Notes under the pieces: generated by a model
Database searches by the model: none
Seen by the model: the letters and a program-made list of their open reading frames with translations, nothing else
What the model was told of the DNA's origin: nothing
Source: Rhododendron vialii
Lineage: Eukaryota; Streptophyta; Magnoliopsida; Ericales; Ericaceae
DNA: 64,000 bases
Direction of reading: 5' to 3'
Assembly (NCBI RefSeq): GCF_030253575.1
Contig: NC_080564.1
Coordinates: 4,570,501 to 4,634,500, forward strand
Shown: positions 1,110 through 38,323 of the stretch, piece by piece
How the letters are laid out: the number at the start of each line of letters is the position of its first letter
How positions within the stretch are numbered: position 1 is the stretch's first letter
Made by a program: the position numbers and the translations under genes

Positions 1110-2965
1110 GACTCGACAAAATTTCCACAATAAACTCTTCCTATGCTGCGCTAAGTTTGGTGAGCAATTCCATTTTTTGATTCTTCTCCTTGTTGGATCT
1201 GATAGGCTATCTACTTCCCTACCTAACTACCTCTAATAAGAAACTCACAGTTGTTTTCCCATTCATTCATTTCTTGTCTTCAAAATTGCTACAATGGCAG
1301 ATGAATCGGGTAATGCTGGGTCAAGCACCTTAAGAGTGGCGCCTGCAATTTTGTTAGATGCAGAAAAAGAAGCCAAGGCTGTGTTAACCTTGTTTTTGAA
1401 GAAACAGGTTTTGAGCAAGGCAGTTGCTACAAGAACTATCAATAAAGCAGCACTTTTTGTTGATCACCTTGTTTCAAGGCTTCATTCTGTCCATAAAACT
1501 CGGTATCTTGTAGGTTCGAGTACAACTTATTATTCCTTGGAGCACTCCTTTGTTATGTCGTATCTATTTTCTAAGAGTTACGAACAGGGCCACCACTGAG
1601 TTTTAAGGGACCCTATCTCAAGTTCAGTGATGGGCGGATTTCAATGCTCTTAACTGAAAATCTGGACTAATTTGACACTGTTGAATCAGATTTTGGCCCT
1701 TGGGCGTTTAAATTAAACCATTTGTCAAACTGAAATCATTTTTATTTTGGACTTTCATTTAGGGTACTAAATATTTTGGGGCCCTAATTTTCAGTCGGAG
1801 CCTAAAAGGCAATGGCTTAATTTATTTCCTAACTTATCTGACTTCCTTTGGTTTTCAGGGAGAGAGCCTTTACAACTCTTGAGATCAGAGATGCTCTAAA
1901 TCCATACCTTGAAACCCTCTTTGAGGAATTTGGGGACACTCTGGTAGATCTAGTGGAAAATTTCCCAAATTCACTTATTGAAGAAAGATCAACTGGTCCT
2001 TCAGTCCCGCCAGTGGAAGAAGGACAGGTTGTGCCAGTTTCAGCCCCTATTACCTCTCTCAACTCTATGAAGTTAAGAGCCTTTGCTAGATTGACTAAAG
2101 ACGGTCCCACTGGGAAGCTTCCTCCAGAAATTATCTACCTCACAGAACTAGGCATTGAACTCGAGTCTCGAGGTGATCAAAGAAGTGACGCAAGTACACT
2201 GCCTTCGCGCGCTACTGCTTGGATGGGAAAGTTAAGCCTGTGGTTGAATTCCTGTTTGATCTTGGGGTTCCCAAATCCAATATCCCCGCCATTCTCAGGA
2301 AATGCCCTCGACTAGGTGGAGTCAGTGTCTCTGATCATCTAATACCCACTGACGTTTTTAGAGAACTTAGGCGTGGACAAGAAACATTGGGCGAAGGTAA
2401 TTTATCGATTTCCCGCGCTTCCCGTTTATAGCAGGCAGAAGTTGAAATCAATTCTTGATTGTCTTTATGAATTGGGACTCTCAACCGAAAAGCAGGGTAA
2501 GGTTCTTACGCGCTTCCCGAATATCTTAAGTTATGGAGTGGAGAGGTTAAGGGTTACAGCTCAGTACTTCCATTCTATTGGGGTTGATGTAGGAACTCTT
2601 CTCCACAAATTTTTGGTCCAAGTATAGAGGCCAATTTGAAACATGTGACAGAGTTTTCTTGGAGAGGGGATTCAGTATAGAGGAGGTCGCCTTCATGGTC
2701 TCGAGTTATGGAAATATTTATACCTTAAGCTTGTCGAAGAACATTATGCCCAAGTGGGATTTCTTTTTGACAACGGGTTACCCGAAAGCTGCTCTGGTTA
2801 AATCGCCTCAGTATTTTGGGTTCAGTTTGGAGGGCAGGATTAAACCTAGGTATGCAATGGTGAGGGAAAGCGGAGTAACGTTGACTATGAAGCGGTTACT
2901 CTTATCTTTCAGATGGTGAGTTGGCCAAGGTTTTGAAAAGAAAAATGAAGGAAAATGTTGGATGA
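1110..2965 (+). pseudogene. mTERF copy 1: MTERF5-like pseudogene, 5' exon outside window
   Basis: The most decayed copy of the array. Exon 2 (1110-1159) and exon 3 (1301-1513) are still open and correctly bordered by splice sites. Exon 4 (1859-2965) is clearly homologous to the 1.1-kb mTERF exon of the other copies, but the coding sense hops between frames at about 1865, 2160-2215, 2355, 2610-2655 and 2905, so at least five frame breaks interrupt the mTERF repeats. Recognisable pieces include VKPVVEFLFDLGVPKSNIPA and the region around NIMPKWDFFLTTGYPK. The transit-peptide exon should lie upstream of position 1, 1-2.6 kb from exon 2 as in the other copies. No functional protein is expected; a transcript is possible. 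Confidence 0.85.
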
Positions 2966-4936
2966 AACTGTTCCGATTTCCAAGCTTTTCCCGTTCATCA
3001 CAGGTGATTCCATGATTCAATTACAGGTTTGTTATAGCCTCTGGCCCAAAACCCCGGTCAGTTAACAGTTAAGCTTTTAGAAACGATGCATTTTGTGGAA
3101 CTAGAGGTTATCGGACTCTTGGCATTTCGTTGCAGTTTTAGTATTATTTCAAGGACCGGAGTAGTTGAATGTTTGTTGTATAATTTTGTACACGGATTGT
3201 TGAACGAAGCATCGACATTCTCCTTTAGCTCCCCTCCTCAAGCTTTGTTTTCTGGTGTGTTGTCTTGATTATTCTTCATTGATTTTCATTTTTTTGCTGC
3301 TTATATTACCAACAATGGTTCTTTGGTTTTTTCCTTGGCAATTCTAAGTTCCATGAAAGGGATCCTGGTAACTTGTCCAAGAAAGGGATGGGGCTTCCAA
3401 ATCACCTGTGTCCGTCCTGCACCCCTTTATCTTTCTTTCTTGTTCTAGTTTCCTTAATTCGATGGTGCCAAACGATTAAAGAGAGATTTTGTTATGTTTT
3501 TTTTTTTGGCTCAAGTCTAATCATTGTATATCTCTAGTACGTTTGAACTCAAATTTGTTGAACAAATTGGATTGATTCTTGAGGATCAAAAAAAGAGAAA
3601 AATGGATTGATTCTTCTTATTGTGTCCCTGTTCGTAATTTTTGGACTTTCCCTACCTGAAAACCTGTGGTAGGAACAAGGGAGACTATTGGGTTTTCTAA
3701 CTTGGATTTTCCTTTGACTTTAAAATAGTCATTACCATTAATAGTTGGACAATTTATCAACTTTACAGCTTTTTTTTTTTATAACTCAGGTGTTAGGCCA
3801 GATTTCGAGCACCTGGATTAATTTTGGGAGACCAATTTCGGAGGCCCCAATTAAAGTTAGAACAAAGCTCTGTATGAACTGATCCCAAAAGAATTAATAG
3901 TATGTAAGAGATTTCGAACTTGAGATCTTAGGAGGAAGCAAATTACCAAGGCTTGAAACCTGAGACCTTAGGAGAAAGTAAATCCGTAAGACTTTAGGCC
4001 AACCAGAGGTTATCAACTTTACAACCTTAGGGGTTGGCCCGGTGCTCTTTGCCTGAGACTTGGGAGTTTACTTCCTCTTGAGATCTCGAGTCGATTTTCT
4101 TTGCCAACTACTATTTTAGTCATCTCAGTATCTCACTCTACTCGTATTCTACCTAATAAAACACAAGGGTGTGGGGACTACACAAACACAAGTTAATCCA
4201 AGGGTTGAGATTCATTTGATGTAAGGGTTGACAAAGCATTCTCTCCAAGAAATTAAAGTGCCCATGTTTTTTACATATATTACAAAATTGTCATCAAATC
4301 ACTTTTGCTCTAGCAGCCATCAGTTTGCACATTATTTATGTATTTCAAAACCCACTTCGCCATTTCTCCATATCTCTCTCTCTTATCCAACCGACGTCGT
4401 TCCCCGCGCCGAGAACTGGACTTTCGTCTCCGTCGCCATTTCAAAATATTTCTTTATATTTTTGCTTATTTGTAATATGATGGTGTCTCTATTCATGTTT
4501 GACGGACAATTAGCGAGTGTATAAATTAGGAATGGCAGGGCTTGAATAGTCTCAGTGCCCACAAACTATTCCGAACACCCCATATTACTGCCAACTCTTT
4601 TTTTTTTTATTAAATCAACTTTACCTAAAATATATTTTGGTAAGTGAGTGTGTTGGTATGATATGAGATTGGAGGGCTGTCCCGGATTATGGAGTGGATC
4701 ACATTCAAAATGTATTCTTCCACACTCCTTCCATTCTCCCGAGGTTCTTGATAAATTTGTCTTCATCTCAAACTTCAATAGCCACTCATTTTTCCAAATA
4801 CGATACCTTCTCTTCCCCTTGCTTCGCTTCGCAGCTGCCTCCCGATTCTCTCAGCGCCTGGTATCCGACCAAAACTACCCGACATATCCAGTCTCCAAAT
4901 CTGCCCTCAGAAAATCCCTCATCCCTTTCTTCCAAA
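2966..4936. other. Spacer between mTERF copies 1 and 2
   Basis: Presumed 3' flank of copy 1 and promoter of copy 2. The first ~300 bp match the 3' flank of the other copies. Between about 3770 and 4090 there are several imperfect direct and inverted copies of an 'acctgagaccttaggagaaag'-like phrase, probably an old repeat I cannot classify. A T/C-rich stretch from about 4330 resembles a plant promoter. No gene is visible. Confidence 0.5.
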
Positions 4937-7900
4937 ATGCAAACTATAAGGTCCTCCGACCTTTCTTCTCTACCAGGACCAGCCTTTTCCATACCCAGGT
5001 CTCAATTTCTTGTCATACTCATACATGGGTCCTGTATCTATATCTGTATTACTATATGGATATCATGCTTCGTGAAGTACATCAGTTTTGTGTATTTACA
5101 TGCATTATCCCTTGCTATTGACTTAAAGAATCATACTTCTTGCACTTTTGGATGTTCTGATGATAAGCTTTTGGGGTTTGTAAATGCTTTCCTATCTGAT
5201 TGTGATGATAAAATTATAGAACTCAGCTGGAGGAATCGCTGGTGGTGATTTGGTAAAGGCCGGGGGGACGCTCTTCCTTAGGTCTATAGTTCAACTTTTC
5301 TTGCTAGCAACTCTTAAGGCAACCTCACCCCTTGTGTAACCTTGTGAAACAGCTTTGGGAGGGTCTGCATGGATTTGTCTGAGGTGTATGCAAGCTGGCT
5401 CAGGATACCTGCATTACCAAAAAAATCGCTTGAGGACAACATGTGAACGTGTACATTACCGTGGTTGTTGGATCACCATAAATTGCGAAACAAAATGAGG
5501 CCTTGAAAGCACATTTGAATGTTGCTCGACTGAACATTTTAGTATGATTGAGTAGAAAAATGAAGGCAATGAGTGTTGTGCAGGGTTAGCCAATTGGTAG
5601 GTAGAGCCATACATCACAAAGTCGAAACTGTGAAGCCCTTGATATGTTTGAATAAAAAAGGATAGGCAATGTGCAAAACAAAGGGATTAGCAGGCTGGCT
5701 GATGGAGCCAGAGGTTCGGTCCCCTTAGGGCCACACGTGGCTATCTCCAGTAATTATTCCGTATGCGTGGGCCCTAGGGCAGGGGGACTGGATATACCCG
5801 GGGAAATATTTGAGGCAAAAGGCTGGTTTTAGAAAGTAAGATAGGAAGGGATTGAGAAAAAGACCTGCACTAAGCGGGACTACGAGCAAGTGGTTTTTTG
5901 AATATCTTAAGAGAGCCGCTTAAACCTGAAGTGGTACAAATCATACAGTAATCGAGTCCTTGCAGGTTTTACTGTTTTATTGTCCTAGCAATCTATCAAA
6001 TTAAGTATTTTGCTAGCACTCAGTTAAGTACAGATACTTCAGTTGTTTGCCGCAGAACTTATGGATATGCACACTTTAGACTGTTGTTGTATGCCTTCCA
6101 AATAAAAAAAGATTGTTGTTGTACGGACCTGGCACGATATTGGCATCTATGAACGTATCCATGATAAATTAGCAACATTACCTGTTTGAAATCCCGGAAC
6201 CAGGAAGCACGTCACTTTTGCTTGTAGAAAACAGAGATATTACTTTTGCAAATCCAATAGTGGCAACAAAAAATAATTTCTAGGAGTTCTCTCTGGCTTT
6301 CGCTGTTTCTATTTCCAAGTTGACAATGCTAAAATTTACTGTAGTTTTTACATCATATCAGGATTCAAATCACTTTTCCCAAGAAACTTTTCTTCTGCCG
6401 CGCAAAGTTTGGTGAGCAATTCTTGTTTTCTTCTTCTTCTCCTTGTTACATCTGGTGAACCACATAACAACTTTGGATAATTTGGTCTGCTACAATGGCA
6501 GCTGAATCGGGTAATGCTGGGTCGCACAACTTAAGAGTGGCGCCTGGATATTGGTTAGAGTCAGAAAAAGAAGAAGCCAAGGCTTTATTGACCTTGTTTT
6601 TGAAGGAACAAGGTTTCAGCAAGGCAGTTGCAGCAAGAACTATCAACAAATCAGCTCTTTTCATTGATCACCTTGTTTCAAAGCTTCATTCTGTTCATAA
6701 AACTCGGTATCTATCAGGTTCGAGTACAACACATCATTGCTTTCCTTGAAGCACCCCTTTTTTATGTTTGTCTATTTTTTAAGCTTTATTACCAGGGCTG
6801 TCCCTGAACTTTTTAAGGGGCCCGATCCCAAGTTCGGGGATAGGCTCTCCTTACAGACATGGATTTTAATGCCCTTACCTCTTAATTGAATTCGAAACCT
6901 TTGAATCTGACTTGGGTCCTTGGGCTTCTAAAGTAGAACTTTTATCAAACTAATAGCATTTTTCTTTTTATTTTGAACTTCATTGAGGGTATATTTTTGG
7001 GGTCCCTAATTTTTTACATAATTGGGGCTAAATCAATGGTTTCATTGGCTTTAGCCCAGTTACGGCTCACAGTTTATTGCCTAGCTTATCTAACTTCCTT
7101 TGACATTTCAGGGCAAGAGCTTACAACTCTTGAGATCAGGGATGCTCTAAATCCATACCTTGAAACCCTATTTGAGGAGTTTGGGGAAATTCTTGCAGAT
7201 GTAATAGAAAATTTTCCAAATCCACTTATTGAAGAAAGATTGATAGAAAATTTACCGCCAGGGGAAGAAGGACCGGTTGTGCCGTTTTCAGCCCCTATTA
7301 CTAGCCTCAACTCTATGAAGTTAAGGGCCTTGGCTACATCGACTGACGACGGTCCCACTGAGGAGGTTCCTCCACAAATTATCTACCTCACAAAACTTGG
7401 CATGGAAGTTGGGGTGATCGAAGAAGTGACCCGCAAGTTCCCTCCCTTCGCTGACTACACTGTGGATGAGAACATTAAGCCTGTGGTTGAATTCCTACTT
7501 GATCTTGGGGTAACTAAATCCGATATCCCTGCGATTCTCAGAAAAAGGCCTCAACTCTGTGGACTCAGTCTCTCTGAGAAATTGATACCCACTGTGACGT
7601 TTCTGGAAAACTTAGGCGTCGACAAGAAACAATGGTCAAAGGTAATTTGTCGATTTCCTGCACTTCTCGTTTATAGCAGGCATAAGTTGAAATCAAATCT
7701 TGATTGTCTTTATGAATTGGGTCTTTCTACCAAAAACCGGGGTAAGGTTCTAATGCGCTTCCCGCCTATCCTAAGTGTTGGAGTGGAGAAGTTGAGGGAT
7801 ACAGCTGAGTACTTCCATTCTATTGGCGTTGATGTAGGAACTCTTCTCTACAAATGTCCACAAATATTTGGTCTAAGTATTGAGGCCAATTTGAAACCTG

Positions 7901-8220
7901 TGACGGAGTTTTTCTTGGAGAGGGGATTCAGTATAGAGGAGGTTGCATTTATGGTTTCAAGATTTGGAAATTTCTATACCTTAAGCTTGTCGAACAACAT
8001 TATGCCCAAGTGGGAGTTCTTTTTGACAACGGGATACGCGAAATCTGATCTGGTTAAATACCCTCAGTATTTTGGGCACAGTTTGGAGGAGAGAATTAAA
8101 CCTAGGTACGCAATTATGAAGAAATGTGGAGTAACGTTGACTCTGAAACGGTTACTCTTTCTTTCAGACAGTCAGTTGGATAAGGTTTTGAAACAAAAAA
8201 TGAAGGAAAATGCAGGATGA
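4937..8220 (+). CDS. MTERF5: mTERF copy 2: MTERF5-like plastid transcription factor, 478 aa
   Basis: Exons 4937-4998, 6362-6411, 6502-6717 and 7112-8220 join in frame with GT-AG introns into 479 codons. Residues 1-37 (MQTIRSSDLSSLPGPAF..., then FPKKLFFCRAKF) are Ser/Arg-rich and lack acidic residues apart from one Asp, like a plastid transit peptide. Residues ~50-112 hold the conserved EEAKALLTLFLKEQG and SALFIDHLVSKLHSVHK stretches. From ~180 onward come about eight mTERF helical repeats, with phrases such as EFLLDLGVTKSDIPAILRK and NIMPKWEFFLTTGYAKSDL. In Arabidopsis MTERF5/MDA1 is a plastid nucleoid protein that helps transcription of the psbEFLJ operon; that role is inferred here. An internal ATG at 6495 overlaps the intron-2 acceptor and could start a leaderless protein. 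Intron 1 (1.36 kb) holds repeats shared with the other copies. Confidence 0.87.
6793..7072. mobile_element. Ancestral hAT-like MITE in intron 3, copy 2
   Basis: Starts CAGGGCTGTCCCTGA after TTTATTAC and ends before TTTATTGC, the same insertion site as in copies 3-7. The right terminal repeat is worn compared with copy 3. Noncoding. Confidence 0.6.
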
Positions 8221-10091: not shown

Positions 10092-13000
10092 ATGCAAGCT
10101 CTCCCTTCCACAAGGACGTCCTCCGACCTTTCCTCTCTACCAGGACCAGCCTTTTTCATACCCAGGTCTCAATTTTTTGCCATTCTCATACGTGGGTCCT
10201 GCATCTATTGTTGTGTTAGTATAGAGATTCGTGGTTCCTACTTCATATCATGCTTCGTTAAGTACATGAGTCTTTACTGTCTTCTTGTATGTACGCGCAT
10301 TATATGTGTTTTTAAGATGATTGTCCCTTAACCTAATGTGTTTGGAACTCGAGGAGAGAAATGGAAATGAAGAGATTTATTTTTTCCAAAATTTTCCTGC
10401 CGTTGTTTGGTTTCTAGAGAAAAAGAAGGGAAATTTTAAGATCCAAGTTCAATTTTCTATTCAATTTCTTCTTTTACTTTCCCTCTTCATTATTTTCCCT
10501 TTATTTCCCCGAGTTCCGAACACAGGGAGGCCTAGCGGCGAAATCCTGGGACTTGGTGATGTAACCTGAAATTTCCAAGCCAGACTATATCTGAAAATTA
10601 GCACCTAAACTTGAAGTTTAAACAGAAACTGCAGTTTTTATTTCATGAAAAATGCTCTCAGAATACATAGAGAAAGGAGAGGATAGATAGAAGAGGAAAG
10701 AAATGGGAGAAACGTATAGTGTCACCTAGGGGCCAAGGACAAGAGAGAGATAGGGGGAACCCTTGAACTACTAAGGGGTCTTGAACCACAAAAGGAGAGG
10801 AAGAGAAGGGAGGGAGATAGGGGAAGGGAAGCATGGAGCCACAGCCCCAGACAAACATTGAGGTTTTCTCTCACGTGGTCTCCTCCAAAATAAATCTAGA
10901 CTCTTAAAAGCCCCAAAACATAAAAGTGCATGAGGGGCTGGAGGAAGTGTGTGAAACGATTGTAGAAGGGGCTGGAAGATTAGTCCAATGCGCCCACGCG
11001 TAAGCGTCTGAAACAGTTGTGTGAGGGGTTGTAGGAATTAATTTGAGGTGCACGCAAGCTAGCCCGGCACACGGTGCATTACAAAAGAAAAAGAGAGAGA
11101 TGGTTGTCCCTTGCTATTACCAAAAGAATCGTAGTTCATGCACTTGTGAGTATTCTGATGCAATGGTAAATTTGCTAGAGGACGTCACGTGAGTGTCTAC
11201 AGTATCATGGTTGCTGATTATCATAAAGTGTGAACATTTATGAGGCCTTGAAAGCATATTTTTTGAATTTGGCTGTTGCTTGACTGACCAAATTCACGCA
11301 GCTAGGGTAAATCTAGTGTTTGGATGTTGATATGATTGTGCTGAAAACCAAAGGCAAGTGATCCACAGCATAGTTGTCCAAATCGCATGATTAGTTGTCA
11401 AAATTGCATGTACTCAATGTTCTAAAAGTCGCTAGGCGCTAGTCGGGTGGTCGGCCAAGCGATTAATTGGATTAATCGGTGCATATTAATTAGTAATTGG
11501 CGATTAATCGTTAGTCGGACCTAATCGGATAGGCCTCGCTAGTGATTAATCGCTGATTAATCACTGATTAATTCCTTGTTTTAGAACTGCATGTACTAGT
11601 GTCTTTCCTATTAGAAATAGAAAACAAACTCCAACATTGGTTTAAGCTTAAATTTTACAATCTTACAATGTATGTATATTATGTAGATGCATAGATACAT
11701 TTTCCAATGTATTTTTGAAATTTGGACCGAATCGCTACGATTTACGATTCGGAAAAGGAACAATTGGACTCGCAATCTGACAACCTTGATCCAGGGGGTT
11801 ATCCTAGTGGTAGGTTGAGCCATAAATCACAAAGTTGAATTCACATACCCTTTGGTATGGTTGAGCCAAAAAAAAAAACCCCAATAGGCGATGAGTAATT
11901 GGCAAGCTGGTAAGTGCAGCCACAGGTTTGGTTCCTTGAAGCGCTTGATCCCCGTAGGGCACACAAGGCTATCTTAAGTAATTGTTCGGTATGCGGGGGC
12001 CAAGGGCTAGGAGGATTGGATGTACCCGAGAAACTAGTCGAGGCAAAAGGCCATTTCTAGAAGACAAGATAGAAAGGATTGAGAGAGAAATGCAAACAGG
12101 GAGACTGAGCAAGGGACTGTAGAATATCTTAAGAGCAGTGTTCTAAAAGTCGTTAGGCGCTAGTCGGGCAGAAGAAGGGCGCTTGGTGCCTAGAGGCCAA
12201 CTAATCGGCGCATAGGACGATTTTTATCTAGACGTTGGACCCCCGCTTAGCGCCTAGGCATTGACTAGTCGGCTGCCTAGACCGATTTTTAGAACAGAGC
12301 GTAAGAGAGCCACTTTGACTTGAATTTGTACAGCAATCAAGTTGCGCATGTTACAGTTTTATTTTCCTACCAATCAATTCTTTGTTCAAGTATTTTGCTT
12401 GCTCTCAATTAAGTACAGCAGCTACAGCTGTTTCAGTTGTTTGCCACAACACTTATGAATTAGTACACTGTAGATTGTTGTTATATGGCCTCAGCTTGTA
12501 CAATATTGGCTACTAGTGAATGCATCCATAATACATGATACATCAGTAACGTTATCCGTCAGATAGCCCGGAAGGAGGAAGCATGCCACATTTCCGTGTA
12601 CCAAAAAAGGAAATATCGCTTTTGCCAAATCCCAATACAGTAGTAGCAACAAAACAATAGTTAGGAGTTCTTTCTGTGCTCCACTGTTTCTATTTCCAGG
12701 TCGAAAATGCTAGTATAATTTTGTTTTGATCTCATATCAGGACTCAACTCACTTTTCCAAAGAAACTGTTCTTCTGCCTCGCTAAGTTGGGTGAGACATT
12801 CTTCCTTTTAATTCTTCTCCTTGTGCAGGTAATGGGCTACCTACTTCCCTACCTCCAACAAGAAGCTCACCAACTTTTTTCCATTCATTAATTTCTTGTC
12901 TAACAACTTTGAAAATTTTCTTTGGCTGCAATTGCAGCTGAATCGAGTAAACCAGGGTCGCACAACTTTGGAGTGACGCCTGCAAATTCATTACTTGCAG

Positions 13001-14638
13001 ATAAGGAAGAAGCCAAGGCTGTATTAACAATGTTTTTGAAGAAACGAGGTTTCAGTGAGGTCATTGCAGCAAGAACTATGCACAAATCAGCACTTTTTGT
13101 TGATCACCTTGTTTCAAGGCTTCATTCTGTTCATAAAACTCAGCATCCAGGAGGTTTGAGTCCAACGCATCATTACATTCCTTGAAGCACGTTTTTTATG
13201 TTTATCTATTTTTTAAGCTTTATTACCAGGGCAGTCCCTGAGATTAAGAAGTCCTATCCCAAGTTCGTGGCTGGGCCCTCTTTGCATAAACAGATTTCAA
13301 TTCCTTACCCTCTTAAGTGAAAATCTAGAGTAATTTAAGACCGTTGAATCAGATTTGGGCCATTGTGCTACGGTCTATACCTTTTACCAAGATAAAAACA
13401 TTTTAGGGTTCTAAATTTTTTTTGGGCCCTGATGTTTTGACAACAGTTGGGGCCTAAAGCAATTGCTTCATTGGCATTAGCCCAGGGACAACCCCTGCTA
13501 TTGCCTAGCTTATCTGATCTCCTTTGACATTTCAGGGCGAGAACTTACAACTCGTGAGATCAGGGATGCTCTATATTCATACCTTGAAACCCTCTATGAG
13601 GAGTTTGGAGACATTCTGGTAGATGTAGTGGAAAATTTTCCAAATCCACCTACAGAGGAAAGATCAATAGAAAATTTATCAGTCTCAACAGTGGAAGGAG
13701 GACCGGTTTCAGCCCCTATTACTACCCTCAACTCTCAGAAGTTAAAAGCCTTGGGTAGATTGACTGACGATGGTCCCACTGGGAAGCTTCCTCTAATTAT
13801 CTACCTCACGGAACTTGGCATGGAACATGAGGTGATCAAAGAAGTGATAAGCAAGTTCCCTCCCTTTGCTGACTACAGCTTGGATGAGAAAGTTAAGCCT
13901 GTGGTTGAATTCCTACTTGATCTTGGGGTACCCAAATCCGATATCCCCTCCATTCTCAGGAAATGGCCTCAACTCTGTGGAGTCAGTCTCTCTGAAAAAG
14001 CTATACACAGTGTGACGTTTTTAGAGAACTTAGGTGTGGACAAGAAACAATGGGCAAAGGTAATTTATCGATTTCCTCGGATTCTCTCTTGTACCAGGCT
14101 GAAGTTGAAATCAAACCTTGATTGTCTTTATGAATTGGGTCTTTCTACTGAAAAGCAGGGTAAGGTTCTAATGCGCTGCCCAAATATCCTAGGATATGGA
14201 GTGGAGAGGTTAAGGGCTACAGCTGAGTACTTCCATTCTATTGGCGTTGATGTAGGAACTCTTCTCCACAAATGTCCACACATTTTCAGTCTGAGTATTG
14301 AGGCCAATTTGAAACCTGTGACAGAGTTTTTCTTGGAGAGGGGATTCAGTATAGAGGAGGTTGCAATTATGGTTTCAAGATTTGGAAATTTTTATACCTT
14401 AAGCTTGTCAAAGAACATTATGCCCAAGTGGGAGTTCTTTTTGACAATGGGCTACCCGAAATCCGATCTCGTTAGATACCCTCAGTATTTTGGGTGCAGT
14501 TTGGAGCTGAGGATTAAACCTAGGTATGCAATAATGAGGGAAATTGGAGTAACAATGTCTTTGGGTCGGTTAATCTCTGTTTCGGATGGCGACTTGTATG
14601 AGATTTTGAAACGAAAAAAGGAGAAACATGTTGGATGA
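10092..14638 (+). CDS. MTERF5: mTERF copy 3: MTERF5-like plastid transcription factor, 480 aa
   Basis: Exons 10092-10165, 12741-12790, 12938-13153 and 13536-14638 join into 481 codons with every junction in frame. The leader reads MQALPSTRTSSDLSSLPGPA, then FPKKLFFCLAKL, typical of a plastid transit peptide. The mTERF repeats fill about residues 180-460. This copy decides the gene model: the ATG that overlaps the intron-2 acceptor in the other copies is ATT here (12931), with no upstream in-frame ATG before a stop, so only the four-exon model gives a complete protein. Intron 1 is the longest of the array (2.6 kb) because three MITEs sit in it (10337-10524, 11415-11589, 12136-12299). A codon triplet present in most copies (GTT-GTG-CCA type, in the linker before SAPITTL) is deleted, as in copy 5. 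Role inferred from MTERF5/MDA1. Confidence 0.86.
10337..10524. mobile_element. Foldback MITE in intron 1 of copy 3
   Basis: 188 bp with ~35-bp imperfect terminal inverted repeats: TGTGTTTGGAACTCGAGGAG at the left and its inverted match CCCCGAGTTCCGAACACA at the right. Superfamily not clear; no target duplication recognised. Noncoding. Confidence 0.6.
11415..11589. mobile_element. hAT-type MITE, 175 bp, in intron 1 of copy 3
   Basis: Begins CAATGTTCTAAAAGTCG and ends TTTTAGAACTG, inverted ends with the CA...TG borders of hAT elements. It is flanked by a perfect 8-bp direct repeat, CATGTACT (11407-11414 and 11590-11597). The inside is rich in GATTAATCG words in both directions. Absent from the other array copies. 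Confidence 0.82.
12136..12299. mobile_element. hAT-type MITE, 164 bp, in intron 1 of copy 3
   Basis: Same family as 11415-11589: begins CAGTGTTCTAAAAGTCG and ends CGATTTTTAGAACAGAG. Flanks CTTAAGAG (12128-12135) and CGTAAGAG (12300-12307) fit an 8-bp target duplication with one change. Copy 2 has the empty site CTTAAGAGAGCC at about 5907, proving insertion after duplication. Confidence 0.82.
13227..13497. mobile_element. Ancestral hAT-like MITE in intron 3, copy 3
   Basis: 271 bp, from CAGGGCAGTCCCTGAG to CCCAGGGACAACCCCTG. Left flank TTTATTAC and a TATTGCC-containing right flank fit an 8-bp target duplication. Present at the same site in copies 2 and 4-7, so it predates the array. It makes up most of intron 3. 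Confidence 0.65.
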
Positions 14639-16349: not shown

Positions 16350-16520
16350 TATTAACTTGACGTTAATCTTTTGATTTACGTGGTTAGGCTAAGAGTTGAG
16401 TATATCAGCTAGAGCGGGTCGTAGGTGGACTCGACAGTGAGTTGCTTGTGCGAGACTTGACTTGTCACACATTGCTTGCCCCATTGCAGCCAAGATGGAG
16501 AGATTGTGATAACTCACCTA

Positions 16521-25900: not shown

Positions 25901-26905
25901 CCAAATCCAGCCACTGAAGAAAGATCAACAGAAAATTTATCAATCCCGTCTTTGGAAGAAGAACCGGTTTCAGCCCCTATTACCACCCTCAACTCCAAGA
26001 AGTTAAAAGCCTTGGCAAGATTGACTGACGACGGTCTCACTGGGAAGCCGCCTCCACATATTATCTACCTCACAGCACTTGGCATGGAAATTGAGGTGAT
26101 CGAAGAAGTGACAAGCAAGTTTCCTTCCTTTGCTTACTATAGCTTGGATAGGAAAATTAAACCTGTGGTTGAAGTCCTACTTGATCTTGGGATACCTAAA
26201 TCCGATATCCCCACCATTCTCAGCAAAAGGCCCCATCTATGTGGAATCCGTCAGACGGAAAAATTATTAATACCCACTATTACGTATTTAAAGAACTTGG
26301 GCATGGACAAGAAACAGTTGACAAAGGCAATTTGTCGATTCCCTGCGCTTCTCACTTGTAGCAGGCAGAAGTTGGAATCAACTATTGATCTGCTTTATGA
26401 ATTGGGGCTTCCAGCCGAACACCTGGGTAAGGTTCTAACGCGTGGTCCGCAGATCTTAGGTTATAGTGGGGAGACTCTAAAGGCTAGAGCGAAGTACTTC
26501 CATTCTATTGGGGTTGATGTTGGCAGTCTTCTCTACAGATATCCGACAATTTTTGGTCTAAACATTGAGACCCATTTGAAACCTTTGACAGAGTTTTTCT
26601 TGGAGAAAGGATTCAGTACTGCGGATATAGCATCAATGATTTCCGGGTTTGGAAGTCTGTGTACTTTTAGCTTGTCAAACAACATTATGCCCAAGTGGGA
26701 GTTTTTTTTGACCATGTGCTACCCGAAATCTGATCTGGTTAAAGTCCCTCAGTATTTTGTGTACAGTTTGGAGCTGAGGATTAAACCCAGGTATGCAACA
26801 ATGAGGGAAAGTGAAGTAACGTTGTCTCTGGGTCGGTTACTCTATCTTTCAGATGGCGACTTGGACAAGGTTTTGAAACAAAAAATGAACAAACATGTTG
26901 GATGA
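22993..26905 (+). CDS. MTERF5: mTERF copy 5: MTERF5-like plastid transcription factor, 481 aa
   Basis: Exons 22993-23063, 24994-25043, 25176-25391 and 25797-26905 join into 482 codons. The leader (MQAFPAIRSSELSSLPGAAF, then FPNKLFFCRAKY) fits plastid targeting. Residues ~180-460 carry the mTERF repeats. The body is closest to copy 6, for example DRKIKPVVEVLLDLGIPKSD and SKRPHLCG are shared by these two only, so they are the youngest pair. The linker lacks the three residues VVP found before SAPITTL in copy 6, a deletion shared with copy 3. Intron 1 (1.93 kb) has lost about 0.5 kb relative to copy 4, with the join inside a short GATTATT/AATTATT match. Plastid function is inferred from MTERF5/MDA1. 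Confidence 0.87.
24244..24470 (+). repeat. Intron-1 repeat modules with tRNA-like promoter boxes (possible SINE)
   Basis: Two adjacent modules begin GGGGTTAGCCTAGTAGTAGG and GGGTTGGGGCCAGCTGGTAA. Each is followed after ~25 bp by a B-box-like word (AAGTCGAATCC and GGGTTCGGATCC). Such pairs resemble the A and B boxes of tRNA-derived SINEs. Counterparts lie in intron 1 of the other copies (about 5585 and 5690, 11,795 and 11,890, 18,606 and 18,697, 29,710 and 30,745). Ends and target duplications are not recognised, so the SINE reading is tentative. Confidence 0.35.
25463..25757. mobile_element. Ancestral hAT-like MITE in intron 3, copy 5
   Basis: Same site as in the other copies: CATTGCAGTCC after TTTATTAG, ending CCCAGGGACGACCC before TTTATTGC. 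Noncoding. Confidence 0.58.
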
Positions 26906-26960: not shown

Positions 26961-27107
26961 GAGGTTTACGAGGGAAAGCGGAGTAATGTCGACTCTGAAA
27001 CGGTTTCTCTGTCTTTCGAATGTTGAGTTGGATAAGGTTTGCAGACAAGACAAAAGAAGAAGGGTGATATGGTTTTGAAACGAAAAATGATGGAAAATGT
27101 CGGATGA
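26961..27107 (+). pseudogene. Duplicated 3' tail of an mTERF gene after copy 5
   Basis: Extra 3' end (GAGGTTTACGAGGGAAAGC to GTCGGATGA) 55 bp after the stop of copy 5. Same structure as behind copies 3, 4 and 6, including the insert before the last codons. Confidence 0.75.
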
Positions 27108-28932: not shown

Positions 28933-31900
28933 ATGCAAACTTTCCCTGCCATAAGGTCCTCCGACCTTTCATCTCTACCAGGAGCAGGAGCAGCTTTTTT
29001 CATACCCAGGTCTCAATTTCTTGTCATTCTCGTACATGGGTCATGTATCTACTGTTGTATAGCTGTATAGATTCGCAGTAGTTGAACATGAGTTTTGTGT
29101 ATATACATTCAGTATGTTTATGGAATATATTGTGATGATTAATCCTTGCTATTACCAAAAAGAATCATACTTCTTGGACTTGTGTCCTTGCTATTACCAA
29201 AAAGAATCATACTTGTTGGACTTGTGAGCATTCTGATGATTAACGTTTGGGATTTGTAAATGCTTTCCTATCTGATTGTGCTGGTGCAATGATAAACTCG
29301 GTAGAAGAATCAACTAGGAGTTGGCTGGTGGTGAAGGTTAGGGACATAGACATAGGGTTTGCTCCTCTAAAGGTCTAATGTTCAACTTTCTTGCTAGTAA
29401 CTCTTGAGGCCACCTCACCCCATGCAACAGTGTGTTTCATGGTAGCTTTGGGAGGGGTTGTAGGATTAGTTACACGCATGTGCAAGCTGGCTTCTGCATT
29501 ACCAGGAAATAAAATTCTGGACGAGGGCATGTGAATGTGTACAGTACTATTGTTGTCGATCGTCATAAATTGCAAAAAAACAACGAGGCCTTATAGGCAT
29601 ATTTGTCAAAATTGAATGCTGCTCGACTGACGAAATTCACACACCCAGGATAAATTTAGTATTTGGATTTCAATATGATTGAGTAGAAAAACAAAGGCAA
29701 TGAGTATCGCAAGGGGTTAGCCAAATGGTAGGTTGAGCCTTGGGTTCAGATCTGTGAAGCACTTGATCCCCTTAGGCCCTCACTGCCACAAAGGGCTATC
29801 TCCAGTTATTATTATTTAGCCCAAGGGAATTAGAGTATCGACTCGGGTATGAATAAAAAGTAGACATTGTTTTTTAGTGATATTAATAGGCAAGTTTTCA
29901 TGTTTATTGTTTAGTTTGGTCGTAGCCAGTCTTTACTTAACTTGGCCAAGCAATGCCCCAAGACTCTCGTGCCTTTCTTGGTCGTACCAACTACCAACCG
30001 GCGATTCCTGTTAAGTCTTTCTTCATTTTTAGAGCAAGAAACAAAACTATGGGAATGAAAATGCCCAAGAGTCCACTTGAGCAATTTACCATTCTGCCGT
30101 TGATTGGCGATTGGCATGGTAATGAAATTCTTGGAACTTGGGGTTTCCCCACTCATAAGGTGCGATTGCCCTTGCTAGGAACTCTTAGGTCACCTCCCCT
30201 TATATATAAGAGTGTGAAACAACTACGGAAGGGACTGGAGGATTTGTCTAATGTGTCCTCATGTGTAAGCGTGGGAAACAGCAATGTGAAGGGCTGTAGG
30301 GATTAGTCTGAGGTGCACGCAAGATGCTCCGGAAACCGTGCATTACCGAAAAAAGGGTGAGAGAGATGATTATCTGTTGCTATACCAAAAGAATCATAGT
30401 TCTTGCACTTGTGAGTATTATGATGATAATGTTTAGGGTCTGTAAATGATTTCCTATCTGATTGTCATGATGCAATAGCAAATTCGCCGGAGGAGGTCAC
30501 ATGAATGTCTACAGTATTATGGTTGCTGATTATCACAAACTGTGAAACATAATGAGGCCTTGAAACCATATTGTGTGAATTTGGCTGGTGCTCGACGGGC
30601 CAAATTCCATACCTAGGTAAATCTAGTGTTTGGATTTTATAATGATTGGGCTGAAAAACAAATGCAGTGAGTGACATAGATCACAAAGTCGAACCCACGT
30701 ACGTTTTGTATGTTTGAGCCAAAAGATAGGCAAGTAAACTCAAGGGGTTGGCCAGCTGGTAAATTGTGCCATGGGTTTGGATTCATTAAGCACTTGGTCA
30801 GGCCGCCCAGCTCTATCTCCAGTAATTATTCGGTACGCATGGGCCCTTGGTGTGGGGGGAACTGGATGTTCCGAGGAACTAGTTGAGGTGGATGTTTTTG
30901 AAATACAAGATAACAAGGGATTGAGAAAAAGAACTGCCATCAGTGGGACTATGAGCAAGTGTTTTTGGAATATCTAAAGGTAGCTTCTTAAACTTGAATT
31001 CGTACAGTAATCCCGTCCTTGTGCGGTTTGCCGATTTGTTTTCCTAGCAATCAATTCTTTGTTAAATTATTTTATTTAGCTAGCAGCCTAGCAATCAATT
31101 GCGTACAGCTGTTTTAGTTGTTTGCCACTACACTTGTGAGTAAGCACACATTGTTGTTATATGGCCTCAGGCTTCTATAAGATTGGTTACTATTGAAGCA
31201 TCCATGATACATTATTAACATTTCCTGTTTGATACGACGGAACGAGGAAGCATGCCACATTTGCTTGTAAATAAAAAGAAGAAAAGAAATATTGTTCTTG
31301 CTAGATCCCACCACAACAGTAGCAGCAAAAATAGTGGCTGGGAGTTCTTTCTGTGCTTCAATGTTTCTATTTCCAAGTCAAAAATATTAAATTTTTGTTT
31401 TGATATCGTATCAGGACTCAACTCACTTTTCCCAAAAAGTTGTTCTTCTGCCACGCTAAATACGGTGAGCGATTCTTCCTTTTTAATTCTTCTCCTTGTT
31501 GCATGTACAATTACCTACTTCTGTACCTCCAATAAGACGCTCACCATTGTTTTTTCCTTTAGTTAATAGTATATTGTCTAACAATTTTGCAACATTTGTT
31601 TTGCTAAATGTCAGCTGAATCGGGTAACGCAGGGTTGCACAACTTAATAGTTGCACCTGCAAATCCATTAGTTGCGGAGAAGGAAGAAGCCAAGGCTGTA
31701 TTGACCTTGTTTTTGAAGAAACGAGGTTTGAGCAATGCGGTTGCAGCAATAACTGTCGACAAATCAGGACTTTTTATCGATCACCTTGTTTCAAGGCTTC
31801 ATTCTGTTCATAAAAATCGGTATCTGGGAGGTTCAAGTATAACGGATCATTGCTTTCCTTAAGCACGCCTTTTTATGTTCATTTTTTAAATCTTTATTAC

Positions 31901-33333
31901 TATTGCAGTCCCTGAGATTAAGGGGCACTATCCTAAGTTCGTATAAGGGCCCTCCTTACATATACGGATTTCAATGCCCCTACCTGCTTAAATTACGATG
32001 TAGAGTAAATTGAAACCGTTGAATTAGATTTGGGCCCTTGGGCTACAGTCTATTTCATTTATCGTTCTAGAAATATTTTTAATTTTCAGATTTGAACTTT
32101 TTTTGGGCCCTATTTTTTTAGACCACGGTTGGGGACTTAAGCAATGGCTTCTTTGGCATTAGCCCGGGGACAACCCTTTTATTTCCTATCTTATCTTATT
32201 TCTTTTGACCTTCAGGGCAAGAGCTTACAACTCTTGAGATCAGGAATGCTTTAAATCCATACCTTGAAACCCTCTACGAGGAGTTTGGAGACATTCTAGT
32301 AGATGTAGTTGAAAATTTTCCAAATCCAGCCACTGAAGAAAGATCGGCAGAAAATTTATCAATCCCGTCTTTGGAAGAAGAACCGGTTGTGCCAGTTTCA
32401 GCCCCTATTACCACCCTCAACTCCAAGAAGTTAAAAGCCTTGGCGAGATTGACTGACGACGGTCTCACTGGGAAGCCACCTCCACATATTATCTACCTCA
32501 CAGCACTTGGCATGGAAATTGAGGTGATCAAAGAAGTGACAAGCAAGTTTCCTTCCTTTGCTTACTACAGCTTGGATAGGAAAATTAAACCTGTGGTTGA
32601 AGTCCTACTTGATCTTGGGATACCTAAATCCGATATCCCCACCATTCTCAGCAAAAGGCCCCATCTATGTGGAGTCCGTGAGACAGAAAAATTATTAATA
32701 CCCACTTTGACGTATTTAAAGAACTTGGGCATGGACAAGAAACAGTTGATAAAGGCAATTCGTCGATTCCCTGCACTTCTCACTTGTAGCAGGCAGAAGT
32801 TGGAATCAAGTATTGATCTGCTTTATGAATTGGGGCTTCCAGCTGAAAACCTGGGTAAGGTTCTAACGCGTGGTCCGCAGATCTTAGGTTTGAGTGTGGA
32901 GACTCTAAAGGCTAGAGCAAAGTATTTCCATTCGCTTGGGGTTGATGTTGGCAGTCTTCTCTACAGACATCCGACAATTTTTGCTCTAAACATCGAGACC
33001 CATTTGAAACCTTTGATGGAGTTTTTCTTGGAGAGAGGATTCAGTACTTCGGATATAGCATCAATGATTTCCAGGTTTGGAAGTCTGTATACTTTTAGCT
33101 TGTCAAACAATATTATGCCCAAGTGGGAGTTTTTTTCGACAATGTGCTACCCGAAATCTGATCTGGTTAAATTTCCTCAGTATTTTGGGTACAGTTTGGA
33201 GCTAAGGATTAAACGTAGGTATGCAATAATGAGGGAAAGTGGAGTAACGTTGTCTCTGCATCGGTTACTCCGTCTTTCGGATGCTGACTTGGATGAGGTT
33301 TTGAAACAAAAAATGGAGAAACATGTTGGATGA
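28933..33333 (+). CDS. MTERF5: mTERF copy 6: MTERF5-like plastid transcription factor, 486 aa
   Basis: Exons 28933-29009, 31415-31464, 31615-31830 and 32216-33333 join into 487 codons, the longest copy. The leader MQTFPAIRSSDLSSLPGAGA, then FPKKLFFCHAKY, has the two-residue addition (GA) seen otherwise only in copy 7. The exon 4 protein is nearly the same as copy 5. The mTERF repeats include IIYLTALGMEIEVIKEVTSK, DLLYELGLPAENLGKVLTRG and NIMPKWEFFSTMCYPKSDLV. The promoter side and start of intron 1 resemble copy 7 while the body resembles copy 5, so the gene is a mosaic from unequal exchange or conversion. Plastid localisation and DNA/RNA binding are inferred from the family. Confidence 0.88.
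31901..32177. mobile_element. Ancestral hAT-like MITE in intron 3, copy 6
   Basis: Same insertion site as the other copies (flank TTTATTAC; left end TATTGCAGTCCCTGAG; right end GGGACAACCC before TTTATTTC). Noncoding. Confidence 0.55.
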
Positions 33334-33383
33334 AACTTTTCCGTTACAAGATTATTCTGTTCATCACAGGTGGTTCGACCGGA

Positions 33384-33537
33384 TGTTTATGAGGGAAAGC
33401 GGTGTGACGTTTACTCTGAAACGGTTTCTCTATCTTTCGAATGGTGAGTTGGATAAGTTTTGCAGATCAAACACAAAAAAAGAAGAAGAAGTTGGATATG
33501 GTTTTGAAATGAAAAAAGGAAGGAAAATGTCGGATGA
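33384..33537 (+). pseudogene. Duplicated 3' tail of an mTERF gene after copy 6
   Basis: Extra 3' end (TGTTTATGAGGGAAAGCGG to GTCGGATGA) ~50 bp after the stop of copy 6, as in copies 3-5. The last known tail in the array; copy 7 has none. Confidence 0.75.
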
Positions 33538-35128: not shown

Positions 35129-38100
35129 ATGCAAGCTTTCCCTGCCGTAAGGTCCTCCGACCTTTCATCTCTACCAGGAGCAGGAGCAGCTTTTTTCATA
35201 CCCAGGTCTCAATTTCTTGTCATTCTCGTACATGGGTCATGTATCTACTGTTGTATTACTTTGTAGATTCACAGTAGTTGAACATGAGTTTTGTGCATAT
35301 GTACATTCAGTATGTTTATGGTTTAATCCTTGCTATTACCAAAAAGAATCATACTTCTTGCACTTTTGAGCATTCCGATGATAAACTTTTGGGATTTGTA
35401 AATGCTTCCTATCTGATTTTGCTGGTGCAATGATAAACTCGGTGGAAGAATCAAACAAGTAGTTGGCTGGTGGTGAAGGTTAGGGACGTAGGGTTTGCTC
35501 CTCCTAAAGGTCTCAGGTTCAACTTTCTTGCTAGTAACTTTGAGGCCACCTCACCCCATGCATAAGCATGTGAAAACGGTAGCTTTGGAAGGGATTGTAC
35601 ATGCGTGTGCAAGCTGGCTCGTGCATTAGCAGGGAAAAAAATAGAGAGGGATTGAGAAAAAGGACCGCAATCAGTGGGACTATAAGCACAGTTCAAAAAA
35701 AAGTGGGACTAAAAGCAAGTGTTTTTCGAATATATCTTGAGACAGCCACTTAAACTTGAATTGGTATAGGTATAGGTTATAGTCCTTGTGTGTTTCACTG
35801 ATTTATTTTCCTAGTGATCAATTCTTTAGTTAAGTATTCTGCTACTGCTAGCACTCAATTATGTAGAGTGTTTCAGTTGTTTGCCACAACGCTTATGGAT
35901 GAGCATGCTTTAGATTTTTGTCATATGACCTTAGCTTGTACAATGTTGGCTACTATTGAGTATTGAACGTGTCCATGATTCGATAGCAACTTTACCTATT
36001 TGGTAGCCCGGAACAAGGAAGCATGTCACTTTTGCTTGTACCAAAAAGAAATACTCCTATCACTTTTGCCAAATCCTAATAGTAGCTACAAAAATAAATA
36101 TCTTGGAGTTCTTTTAGTGTTTCACCCATTTCTATTTCCAAGTTAACAATACTAAAATTTTGTTTTAATATCATAACAGGACTCAAGTCAATTTTCCCAA
36201 GAAACTGTTCTTCTGCCGTGCTAAGTTTTGTGAGCAATTCTCTTCTTTTCTATTCTTCTCCTTGTGGCATCTGATGAGCCACCTAATTCCCTACCTCCAA
36301 TAAGAAGCTCACCATTGTTATTCCATTCATTCATTTCTTGTCTAACAACTTTAGATTTTTTTTTTGCTAAAATGGCAGCTCACTCAGGTAACGCTGAGTT
36401 GCCCAGCTTAGGAGGCGGCCCAGCAAATTTGGTGGTAGCAGAAAAAGAAGAAGCCAAGGCTGTATTGACCTTGTTTTTGAAGAAACAAGGTTTGAGCAAG
36501 GCGGTTGCAGCAAGAACTATCAGCAAATCAGCTCTATTTATTAATCACCTTGTTTCAAGACTTCATTCAGTTCATAAAAATCGGTATCTAGTAGGTTCGA
36601 GTGCAAGCATCATGGCTTTCCTTGAAGCACGCCATGTTCATGTTTATTTTCTTTTAAGCTTTATTACCAGGGCAGTCCCTGAGATTAAGGCGGCCCATCC
36701 CAAGTTCATGTATGGGGCCTCCTTACATAAAAGGAAAAAAGGATTAGAAAATTAGTCTTAGGTCCATTATGTGAACTTCATAAGCCCATAAGTCCACCTG
36801 TTAATTTTGTAAGGTCTCAAGTCCATTTTAGGGTACCGTAGAGTAGAGTAGGGTACCCTAGGGTTTAGGCACTTTCATAAGATTTTAGGATGCACTTTTT
36901 TATTGTAGTATAGGGTACCCTAGGGTTTAGGCACTTTTATAGGGTTTTAGGGTGCACTTTCCTATTATAGGATTTTAGTGGTTTAGGCACTTTTATAGGG
37001 TTTAGGGTTTTAGGCACTTTCATAGGTTACCCTAGGGTTTAGATTGTGTGGACTTGTGGCTTTACAAAACTATTAGGGGGACTTGTGGGCTTATAAAATG
37101 TCTATAGTGGACCTATCACTAAATCTCCCAATCAATGGCTTCATTGGTATTAGCCCAGGGACGACCCTGTTTATTGCCTAGCTTATCTGATTTCTTTTGA
37201 CCTTTCAGGGCAAGAGCTTACAACTCTTGAGATCAGGGATGCTTTAAATCCATACCTTGAAACCCTCTACAAGGAGTATGGAGACATTCTGGTGGATGTA
37301 GTTGAAAATTTTCCTAATCCACCCATTGAAGAAAGATCAATAGAAAATTTATCAGTTTCGCCTTTAGAAGAAGGATCGGTTGTGCCGGTTCCAGCCCCTA
37401 TTACCACCCTCAAGTCTAAGAAGTTAAGAGCCTTGGCTAGATTGACTGACGACGGTTCCACTGGGAAGCCTCCTCCACATATTATCTACCTCACTGAAAT
37501 TGGCATGGAAATGGAGGTGATCAAAGAAGTGACACGGAAGTTTCCTAACTTTGCTTACTACAGTTTGGATGGGAAAATTAAGCCTTTGGTTGAATTCCTA
37601 CTTGATCTTGGGGTACCCAAATCCTATATCCCCACCATTCTCAGCAAAAGGCCCCAACTCTGTGGACTCAGTCTGTCAGAAAACTTAATACCCACTATGA
37701 CATATTTAGAGAACTTAGGCATGGACAAGAAACAGTGGACAAAGGCAATTAGCCGATTCCCTGCGCTTCTCACTTATAGCAGGCAGAACTTGGAATCAAC
37801 TATTAATCTTCTTTATGAATTGGGGCTTCCAGCCGAAAACCTGGGTAAGGTTCTAACGCGTGGCCCACAGATCATAGGTCATAGTACGGTGAACATAAAG
37901 GCTACAGCTCAGTACTTCCATTCTCTTGGGGTTGATGTTGGCAGTCTTCTCCACAAATATCCGCAAACTTTTGGTCTAAACATTGAGGCCACTTTGAAAC
38001 CTGTGACGGCGTTTTTCTTGGAGAGGGGATTCTGTACTGCGGATATTGCACAAATGATTTCCACTTATGGAGCTCTGTATACTCTAAGCTTGTCGGATAA

Positions 38101-38323
38101 CATGAGACCCAAGTGGGAGTTTTTTTTGACAATGTGCTACCCGAAATCTGATCTGGTTAAATTTCCTCAGTATTTTGGGTACAGTTTGGATGTGAGGATT
38201 AAACCTAGGTATGCAACTATGGTGGCAAGTGGAGTAACATTGAGTCTGAACGTGTTGCTCTCTCATTCGGATGATGACTTCGATAGGTTTTTGAAACGAA
38301 AAATGGAGAAAAATGCTGGATGA
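35129..38323 (+). CDS. MTERF5: mTERF copy 7: MTERF5-like plastid transcription factor, 485 aa
   Basis: Exons 35129-35205, 36180-36229, 36379-36594 and 37209-38323 join into 486 codons. The leader MQAFPAVRSSDLSSLPGAGA, then FPKKLFFCRAKF, is transit-peptide-like. The exon 2 donor is TTTT|GTGAGC where the others have TTTG|GTGAGC, which changes the junction codon to Ser but keeps the frame. The mTERF repeats are complete and include EFLLDLGVPKSYIPTILSKR, SQLC-like LCGLSLSENLIPTMTYLE and GLNIEATLKPVTAFFLERG. It has the shortest intron 1 (974 bp), no duplicated 3' tail, and an enlarged intron 3 with a nested insertion and telomere-like repeats. It is probably the least rearranged intact copy. Function inferred from MTERF5/MDA1. 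Confidence 0.88.
36668..37169. mobile_element. Ancestral hAT-like MITE in intron 3, copy 7, split by a second element
   Basis: The outer ends match those of copy 3 (CAGGGCAGTCCCTGAG ... CCCAGGGACGACCCTG, flanks TTTATTAC and TTTATTGC). Its interior is replaced from about 36,746 to 37,125 by a different foldback. Confidence 0.7.
36746..37125. mobile_element. Nested foldback element with telomere-like core
   Basis: Imperfect inverted ends: left ATTAGTCTTAGGTCCATTAT and CATAAGCCCATAAGTCCAC, right GGACTTGTGGGCTTATAAAA and ATAGTGGACCTATCACTAAAT-like sequence. The core (about 36,830-37,050) repeats ACCCTAGGGTTTAGGCACTT with variants, containing TTTAGGG, the plant telomere unit, in several places. 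Noncoding and intronic. Confidence 0.6.

Follow-up and report, generated by a model that had tools for sequence, protein, structure and literature searches.

MTERF5/MDA1 is a plastid pausing and transcript-stabilising factor of mTERF group IV, a group that is plastid-targeted apart from one mitochondrial subgroup, and its binding site is given in a review (PMC7909791) as 21 bp of double-stranded DNA. It is a single gene in the Arabidopsis table of PMC3471360, as the preliminary description of the DNA analysed here had stated, and one barley orthologue, HvmTERF46, is named in the available text of PMC8319850. Tandem plant mTERF genes, some of them decayed, are found in the barley and maize clusters of subfamily IX, a mitochondria-targeted and largely intron-free clade. 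Expansion outside subfamily IX occurs in Artocarpus, where lineage-specific copies of mTERF7 and mTERF15 are described (PMC9791056, in the text available). The MtERF of PMC9400310 and PMC4717309 is, as the name is used in the available text of both, an ethylene response factor and not an mTERF protein. Restorer-of-fertility-like (RFL) PPR clusters belong to another protein family; they consist of tandem genes for helical-repeat organellar proteins, which change fast at presumed recognition positions, and the array described below may work alike. To our knowledge, the way in which mTERF proteins choose their DNA has not been worked out as it has for PPR or TAL repeats. The reference for DNA contacts is the animal protein human MTERF1, whose prolines are described as lining the DNA major groove (PMC4705650). 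Counted from the conserved proline (P) of each repeat, its DNA contacts are R162 at P-2, R202 and R350 at P+1, and R251 at P+9; F243 also sits in the P+1 register.

The window (the whole 64,000-nucleotide stretch that was analysed) contains, at 1110–38323, an array of seven mTERF genes in plant nuclear DNA, arranged head-to-tail in direct orientation with start-to-start distances of 5.0–6.6 kb. In contrast to the one gene of Arabidopsis and the one orthologue named for barley, there are at least seven tandem copies here; the genes resemble those of the subfamily IX clusters in their arrangement and decay but differ in having four exons and an MTERF5-like sequence, and they are other mTERF genes than those expanded in Artocarpus. 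The 300-nt families shown are 64–97% identical to their own reference copies, and therefore the array is not due to chance. Exon models were built with GT-AG junctions and gave the following features.

1110..2975, + strand: copy 1, pseudogene (exon 2 1110-1159, exon 3 1301-1513, broken exon 4 from 1859, end approximate)
4937..8220, + strand: copy 2, intact, 478 aa (exons 4937-4998, 6362-6411, 6502-6717, 7112-8220; PF02536 E 4.8e-56)
10092..14638, + strand: copy 3, intact, 480 aa (exons 10092-10165, 12741-12790, 12938-13153, 13536-14638; PF02536 E 1.9e-51)
14699..14842, + strand: fossil second C-terminus 3' of the copy 3 stop
17059..21074, + strand: copy 4, truncated, 427 aa (exons 17059-17129, 19320-19369, 19516-19731, 20128-21074; PF02536 E 3.8e-35)
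21305..21397, + strand: fossil second C-terminus 3' of copy 4
22993..26905, + strand: copy 5, intact, 481 aa (exons 22993-23063, 24994-25043, 25176-25391, 25797-26905; PF02536 E 4.4e-49)
26971..27066, + strand: fossil second C-terminus 3' of copy 5
28933..33333, + strand: copy 6, intact, 486 aa (exons 28933-29009, 31415-31464, 31615-31830, 32216-33333; PF02536 E 3.3e-48)
33389..33481, + strand: fossil second C-terminus 3' of copy 6
35129..38323, + strand: copy 7, intact, 485 aa, the last of the array (exons 35129-35205, 36180-36229, 36379-36594, 37209-38323; PF02536 E 5.2e-59)
37505..38230, + strand: the seven analysed mTERF repeats of copy 7 (anchored on P, in the sixth on G, at exon-4 residues 112, 148, 184, 219, 251, 287 and 319; offsets -13 to +21)

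A candidate exon, in a conserved block ~450 nt 5' of exon 2, was rejected because the splice phases fit the 50-nt exon 2 instead. The exon models and Pfam matches confirm the count in the preliminary description of five intact genes, one truncated gene and one pseudogene. Its assignment of the same four-exon structure to all seven holds for copies 2–7, whereas only exons 2–4 of copy 1 lie within the window; a search for its exon 1 in 1-1109 returned chance-level matches only, none of them credible.

Membership in the mTERF family is supported by sequence and by predicted structure. The Pfam mTERF profile PF02536 matched the exon-4 reading frames of all six of copies 2–7 (E 3.8e-35 to 5.2e-59; 121.8–200.2 bits vs. 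a curated cut-off of 23.1), and the longest reading frame in exon 4 of copy 1 had no match in the Pfam profile search. An AF2 model of copy 7 exon 4 (pLDDT 75.1, pTM 0.63) is predicted to form superhelical three-helix repeats with the conserved proline. In Foldseek searches of the PDB its best matches were MTERF3 and MTERF1 structures, including MTERF1 bound to DNA (3n6s, E 3.6e-8), so that fold, repeat register and conserved prolines are like those of human MTERF1, from which the model differs in sequence (16–18% identity in the Foldseek rows). Against a sequence that we take to be MTERF5/MDA1 (AT4G14605), array copies are 52–59% identical over most of its length, and the MTERF5 label of the array rests on that presumed sequence, to which copy 7 is the closest member. 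By analogy with MTERF5/MDA1, the products may be dsDNA-binding repeat proteins. Relatives were sought in the genome_contigs and viral_contigs collections and none were found there. For a TPLATE-like neighbour gene, a PDB sequence search gave no match.

Duplicates of this kind could be redundant and drifting under relaxed constraint, with copy 7 or a copy beyond the window doing the work and the rest slowly being lost; we consider this possible, if on balance unlikely. One copy is dead, with seven frame-changing indels in exon 4 of copy 1 relative to copy 2 (not counting one more at the alignment boundary), and another is truncated, by a single late nonsense codon at 21072-21074 in copy 4, whose frame is otherwise open to about 21239. 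Pairwise dN/dS (0.41–0.71) also exceeds, or falls in the upper end of, the 0.15–0.57 range given for barley mTERF duplicate pairs in the available text of PMC8319850. Against drift, copies 2–7 have no frameshift despite many intron indels: in a nucleotide alignment of exon 4 of copies 2 and 3 all three indels are multiples of three, vs. one of eight in intron 3 of copies 5 and 6 (7/8 are not). That all coding gaps in copies 2–7 are multiples of three was dropped as an argument because any protein-derived alignment necessarily shows such gaps; the lack of frameshifts is unaffected. Overall omega (dN/dS) was 0.68, and omega=1 was rejected (p=3.6e-5). The array is therefore not simply decaying, and a state with one copy purified and the others idle, which the preliminary description had named as contrary to its reading, does not appear to be what the sequences of the intact copies indicate.

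Alongside the overall omega below 1 there is a class of fast sites, whose support is weaker without copy 4, a weakening that favours drift. With six copies, the site models supported positive selection (M1a/M2a 2ΔlnL 15.65, p=4e-4; M8a/M8 p=4e-5), and a 2ΔlnL of 15.5 was reached in 0/100 null simulations and in 0/100 with a converted tract (0/200 together), all run with fixed relative branch lengths. Without copy 4 the values were p=0.073 and p=0.011, and with copies 2, 3, 5 and 6 only they were p=0.147 and p=0.025, respectively. The branch of copy 4 itself had an omega of 1.6, in a truncated copy. Large-scale gene conversion masking the tree was rejected, there being no significant run in any of 15 pairs (lowest p 0.108); at columns 206-240, grouping copies 4 and 7 in the tree is favoured by 7.3 lnL, which likely marks a short conversion tract common to the two.

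What is new here is that, when sites are read by mTERF repeat register, the residue after the conserved proline changes fastest. Over seven repeats and all six copies, P+1 was the fastest of 35 offsets (mean omega 1.59–1.60 vs. 0.78; familywise p 0.008–0.011, the pattern having been spotted in the site list prior to being tested). It was again the top offset without copy 4 (familywise p 0.008), and in copies 2, 3, 5 and 6 only the familywise p was 0.108. Dropping repeat 1 left P+1 at rank 2 (nominal p 0.003), and dropping repeats 1 and 6 left it at rank 3 (nominal p 0.012). Only two of the 12 columns with an M8 posterior of at least 0.9 are P+1 columns (229 and 405). A model-free count of residues did not reach familywise significance (p 0.15 and 0.16); with copy 4 left out, it placed P+9 first and P+1 second. 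Offsets -2, +4 and +9 jointly, without +1, gave p=0.014; P-2 and P+4, which are MTERF1 contact registers, were not raised singly (p 0.46 and 0.12), and P-2 is K or R in 39 of 41 cells. Among the six copies there are five distinct sets of P+1 residues: PQAPQNQ, PQRNHNQ, KQAQQV, SHAQTSQ (twice) and NQAQQAQ. Within the mTERF repeats, fast change is in excess at P+1 and, with less clarity, at P+9, and the leaning of fast sites toward one register also speaks against drift. P+1 opens a short helix, however, and could be merely a tolerant position. Overall, our data support that protein change in the array has been rapid and, with weaker support when copy 4 is left out, partly adaptive, at sites corresponding to the DNA-reading positions of MTERF1.

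The copies may alternatively share one protein job and be partitioned by dosage or expression among tissues or stresses. Inter-copy matches 5' of the ATG extend ~270 nt at most, followed by scattered hits only, and promoters may therefore differ; this account leaves the fast change at P+1 unexplained, and we regard it as improbable.

A restorer-like arms race, in which mitochondrial copies would silence cytoplasmic male-sterility genes, seems to us more improbable still. The array is tandem with pseudogenes, as restorer-type clusters are, and its fast, partly broken copies look like RFL-PPR clusters. As far as the available texts go, wheat has a clustered mTERF clade with RFL-like evolution (PMC7759465), rye Rfp adjoins four mTERFs (PMC8035072), and two linked mTERF genes show an association with Rfm3 in barley; the review that reports the last (PMC7154926) backs the barley tie drawn in the preliminary description, as an association at another locus. 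On the other hand, the barley tandem mTERF genes are all of subfamily IX in the available text of PMC8319850, whereas MDA1 is of group IV, and the leaders of copies 2–7 look alike, with no sign of retargeting in their sequences.

The best explanation as a whole, which we hold with about even confidence, is that the array encodes MTERF5-like dsDNA-binding proteins that are diversifying in target recognition. The array would have grown via repeated local duplication and unequal crossing-over, and its products would be MTERF5-like helical-repeat proteins imported into organelles, probably acting in plastids. We infer that the proteins each wrap around double-stranded DNA of the organelle, their prolines lying along the major groove, that the DNA is held by the conserved basic residue at P-2, and that the residue at P+1 helps to read sequence like R202 and R350 of human MTERF1. 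On this view, the copies would differ in DNA target through their changes at P+1, and each would in consequence affect transcription pausing or transcript level in a way of its own. Copy 7, presumably closest to MDA1, would be the best candidate for keeping the ancestral psbE-type job. The suggestion in the preliminary description of new organellar targets is plausible to this extent, because the array is maintained, with omega below 1 and no lesion in five of its seven copies, and changes fast at positions matching the DNA-reading ones of MTERF1. That P+1, aided by P+9, is a base-reading position, and that the copies have been selected for different organellar DNA sites, so that the array amounts to a natural experiment on a recognition code of mTERF proteins, we put forward only tentatively.

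These copies change fastest where mTERF proteins are thought to read DNA, and therefore they may form a natural series with different DNA targets. As close paralogs (67–91% protein identity) that tend to change in one repeat register, they would make a recognition rule directly testable. An expanding array among the usually stable plastid-type mTERFs would, moreover, show that fast evolution in this family extends beyond the mitochondrial clade IX.

Seven direct copies of an mTERF gene were revealed by the repeat search on the forward strand (1110–38323; numbered 1 to 7 from left to right), with spacings of 5245, 6418, 6604, 5663, 6428, and 4990 nt, in N-free DNA (GC 39%) judged by its genes to be plant nuclear. 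Alignments of the inter-copy regions and of the leader region yielded a four-exon model, in which exon 1 carries the ATG (62–77 nt; detected in six of seven copies), exon 2 is 50 nt in all seven, exon 3 is 213–216 nt, and the mTERF domain is located in exon 4. When spliced, copies 2, 3, 5, 6, and 7 gave unbroken proteins of 478, 480, 481, 486, and 485 aa, respectively. The copy 4 product ends at 427 aa, the frame beyond its stop being still open and collinear, and exon 4 of copy 1 has seven frame-changing indels relative to copy 2 (an eighth, at the margin of the aligned region, was not counted). Repeat search and splicing together bear out the preliminary description of five intact genes, one truncated gene and one pseudogene; the four-exon structure it assigned to all seven holds for copies 2–7, and in copy 1 only exons 2–4 were seen. 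Downstream of copy 7, tblastn with copies 2 and 7 as queries (E 0.01) found no mTERF sequence up to 64000. Other features of the window were as follows.

16130–16354: hairpin-like inverted repeat upstream of copy 4, arms of 107 nt, 85% complementary, 11 nt apart
36747–37127: MITE-like block with the look of an insert, in intron 3 of copy 7 and of no other copy; its inverted ends measure 79 nt (76% complementary) and enclose two direct repeats of 62 nt
42190 to about 47300, forward strand: Rad21/Rec8-type cohesin gene, its extent judged by eye from ORFs; the N-terminal exon matches PF04825 (E 1.3e-11)
54395–63351, reverse strand: multi-exon gene with a weak Adaptin_N match (E 0.012, below the cut-off), presumably resembling TPLATE

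The sequence that we take to be Arabidopsis MTERF5 (MDA1) aligned with all six of copies 2–7 over most of the length at 52–59% identity, copy 7 being the best, and serves as a lead only. No relatives turned up in the two contig collections scanned, genome_contigs and viral_contigs. Judged from such similarity, the MTERF5 label for the array is likely. A review (PMC7909791) describes MTERF5 as a dsDNA binder whose 21-bp site runs from +30 to +51 relative to the psbEFLJ start site.

Tandem mTERF duplications are known in Arabidopsis (PMC3471360) and grape (PMC7913399). In maize, both tandem events lie in the species-specific clade, group IX, and group IV, which contains MDA1, has one duplicate pair (PMC3981765); in barley, the tandem genes all belong to subfamily IX and the mTERF5 orthologue is HvmTERF46 (PMC8319850). 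Lineage-specific expansion of mTERF7 and mTERF15 in Artocarpus (PMC9791056) indicates that mTERFs outside subfamily IX expand too. Wheat has a clustered mTERF clade with RFL-like evolution (PMC7759465), and a subset of lineage-specific mTERFs in Salvia is under control of a miRNA (PMC12139070). No tandem MTERF5 array appeared among the titles and abstract starts of the matches listed, which covered few subscription papers. Conflict over male sterility is possible for this array, and found no support here.

Protein identity between copies was 67–91%. Copies 5 and 6 were the closest pair (91.1%), joined by copy 4 and then by copy 7, and copies 2 and 3 formed a pair (73.8%); adjacent copies thus tended to be closest, as expected under local duplication. 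Fossil second C-termini were found past the stops of copies 3–6, and none was found when looked for behind copies 2 and 7. This conflicts with the coding tree, in which copy 3 pairs with copy 2, and so the flanks recombined separately from the coding part. We read these fossils as the scar of unequal crossing-over. Copies 4 and 7 grouped together over columns 206–240 of the alignment (by 7.3 lnL), a tract that is probably gene conversion.

14699–14842: fossil second C-terminus past the stop of copy 3
21305–21397: fossil second C-terminus past the stop of copy 4
26971–27066: fossil second C-terminus past the stop of copy 5
33389–33481: fossil second C-terminus past the stop of copy 6
20397–20501: tract shared with copy 7 (columns 206–240), in copy 4
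37478–37582: the same tract in copy 7

The tandem mTERF array is maintained. Comparison of dN/dS between copies, suggested earlier as a check at the level of each mTERF repeat, gave pairwise values of 0.41–0.71 (15 pairs; dS 0.10–0.37). With a GY94-type, F3x4 codon likelihood program written for this analysis, the one-ratio omega was 0.68, and omega = 1 was rejected (2dlnL 17.1, p = 3.6e-5). Copies 2–7 have no frameshifts; all three exon 4 indels between copies 2 and 3 (nucleotide alignment) are multiples of three, and of the eight indels by which copies 5 and 6 differ in intron 3, seven are not. Site models favored a class of fast sites, 9% of the total with omega 2.9 in the M1a/M2a comparison (2dlnL 15.65, p = 4e-4); M8a/M8 gave 2dlnL 15.5 (p = 4e-5). 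The value of 15.5 was attained in 0 of 100 null simulations (maximum 6.4), and again in 0 of 100 when columns 206–240 followed the alternative tree (maximum 6.2). For M1a/M2a and M8a/M8, respectively, p was 0.003 and 0.0004 with columns 206–280 removed, 0.017 and 0.004 with columns 396–412 also removed, 0.073 and 0.011 without copy 4, and 0.147 and 0.025 for copies 2, 3, 5, and 6 alone. The branch of copy 4 itself had omega 1.6 (p = 0.019, uncorrected for nine branches). Since the tests are significant on six copies but weaker in subsets, positive selection on the copies is likely, not proven.

The AF2 model built for exon 4 of copy 7 has three-helix repeats, in which the short middle helix begins at a conserved proline (P; G in repeat 6), from which we count offsets. 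Over seven repeats, mean posterior omega peaked at P+1 (1.59–1.60; all-offset mean 0.78), followed by P+5, P-3, and P+9. When the highest value among the 35 offsets served as the statistic, familywise p for P+1 came to 0.008–0.011 for all six copies, 0.008 once copy 4 was left out, and 0.108 when four copies were used. The pattern was first noticed in the site list; this p covers the choice of offset and not of question. With repeat 1 dropped, P+1 was second (nominal p 0.003; top offset familywise 0.060), and with repeats 1 and 6 dropped, third (nominal 0.012; top offset familywise 0.038). By a plain count of different residues P+1 was first with six copies and second behind P+9 without copy 4, neither being familywise significant (0.15 and 0.16). 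M8 posteriors reached at least 0.9 at 12 columns, namely P+1 (229, 405), P-3 (225, 298), P+5 (341), P+9 (445), P-2 (402), and also 80, 217, 398, 464, and 468; P+1 columns 337 and 369 had 0.84 and 0.86. The share of differences was higher at P+1 than at other repeat positions in 14 of 15 pairs, which are not independent; copies 5 and 6 are identical at P+1. The P+1 set reads NQAQQAQ in copy 7 versus AQANQAQ in what we take to be MTERF5. P-2 is basic in 39 of 41 cells.

The best Foldseek matches to the copy 7 model were MTERF3 and DNA-bound MTERF1. According to PMC4705650, MTERF1 contacts bases through R162, R202, R251, R350, and R387, and its conserved prolines line the DNA major groove. Residue numbers and 5crk chain positions differ by a constant 72, as worked out by hand from HMMER alignments; two substitution entries, F243A and F322A, served as a check, their altered letters lying at the expected places. 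By this register R162 falls at P-2, R202 and R350 at P+1, and R251 at P+9, with F243 at P+1 and F322 at P+4; R387 was given no register because it sits in a C-segment without the proline. Mean omega over -2, +1, +4, and +9 was 1.17, attained by 0 of 5000 permutations. Without +1 it was 1.03 (p = 0.014), and 0.95 (p = 0.093) with repeats 1 and 6 dropped as well; it was not raised at P-2 alone or P+4 alone. The best reading, which we hold to be about equally likely to be right or wrong, is that the copies diversify in DNA recognition.
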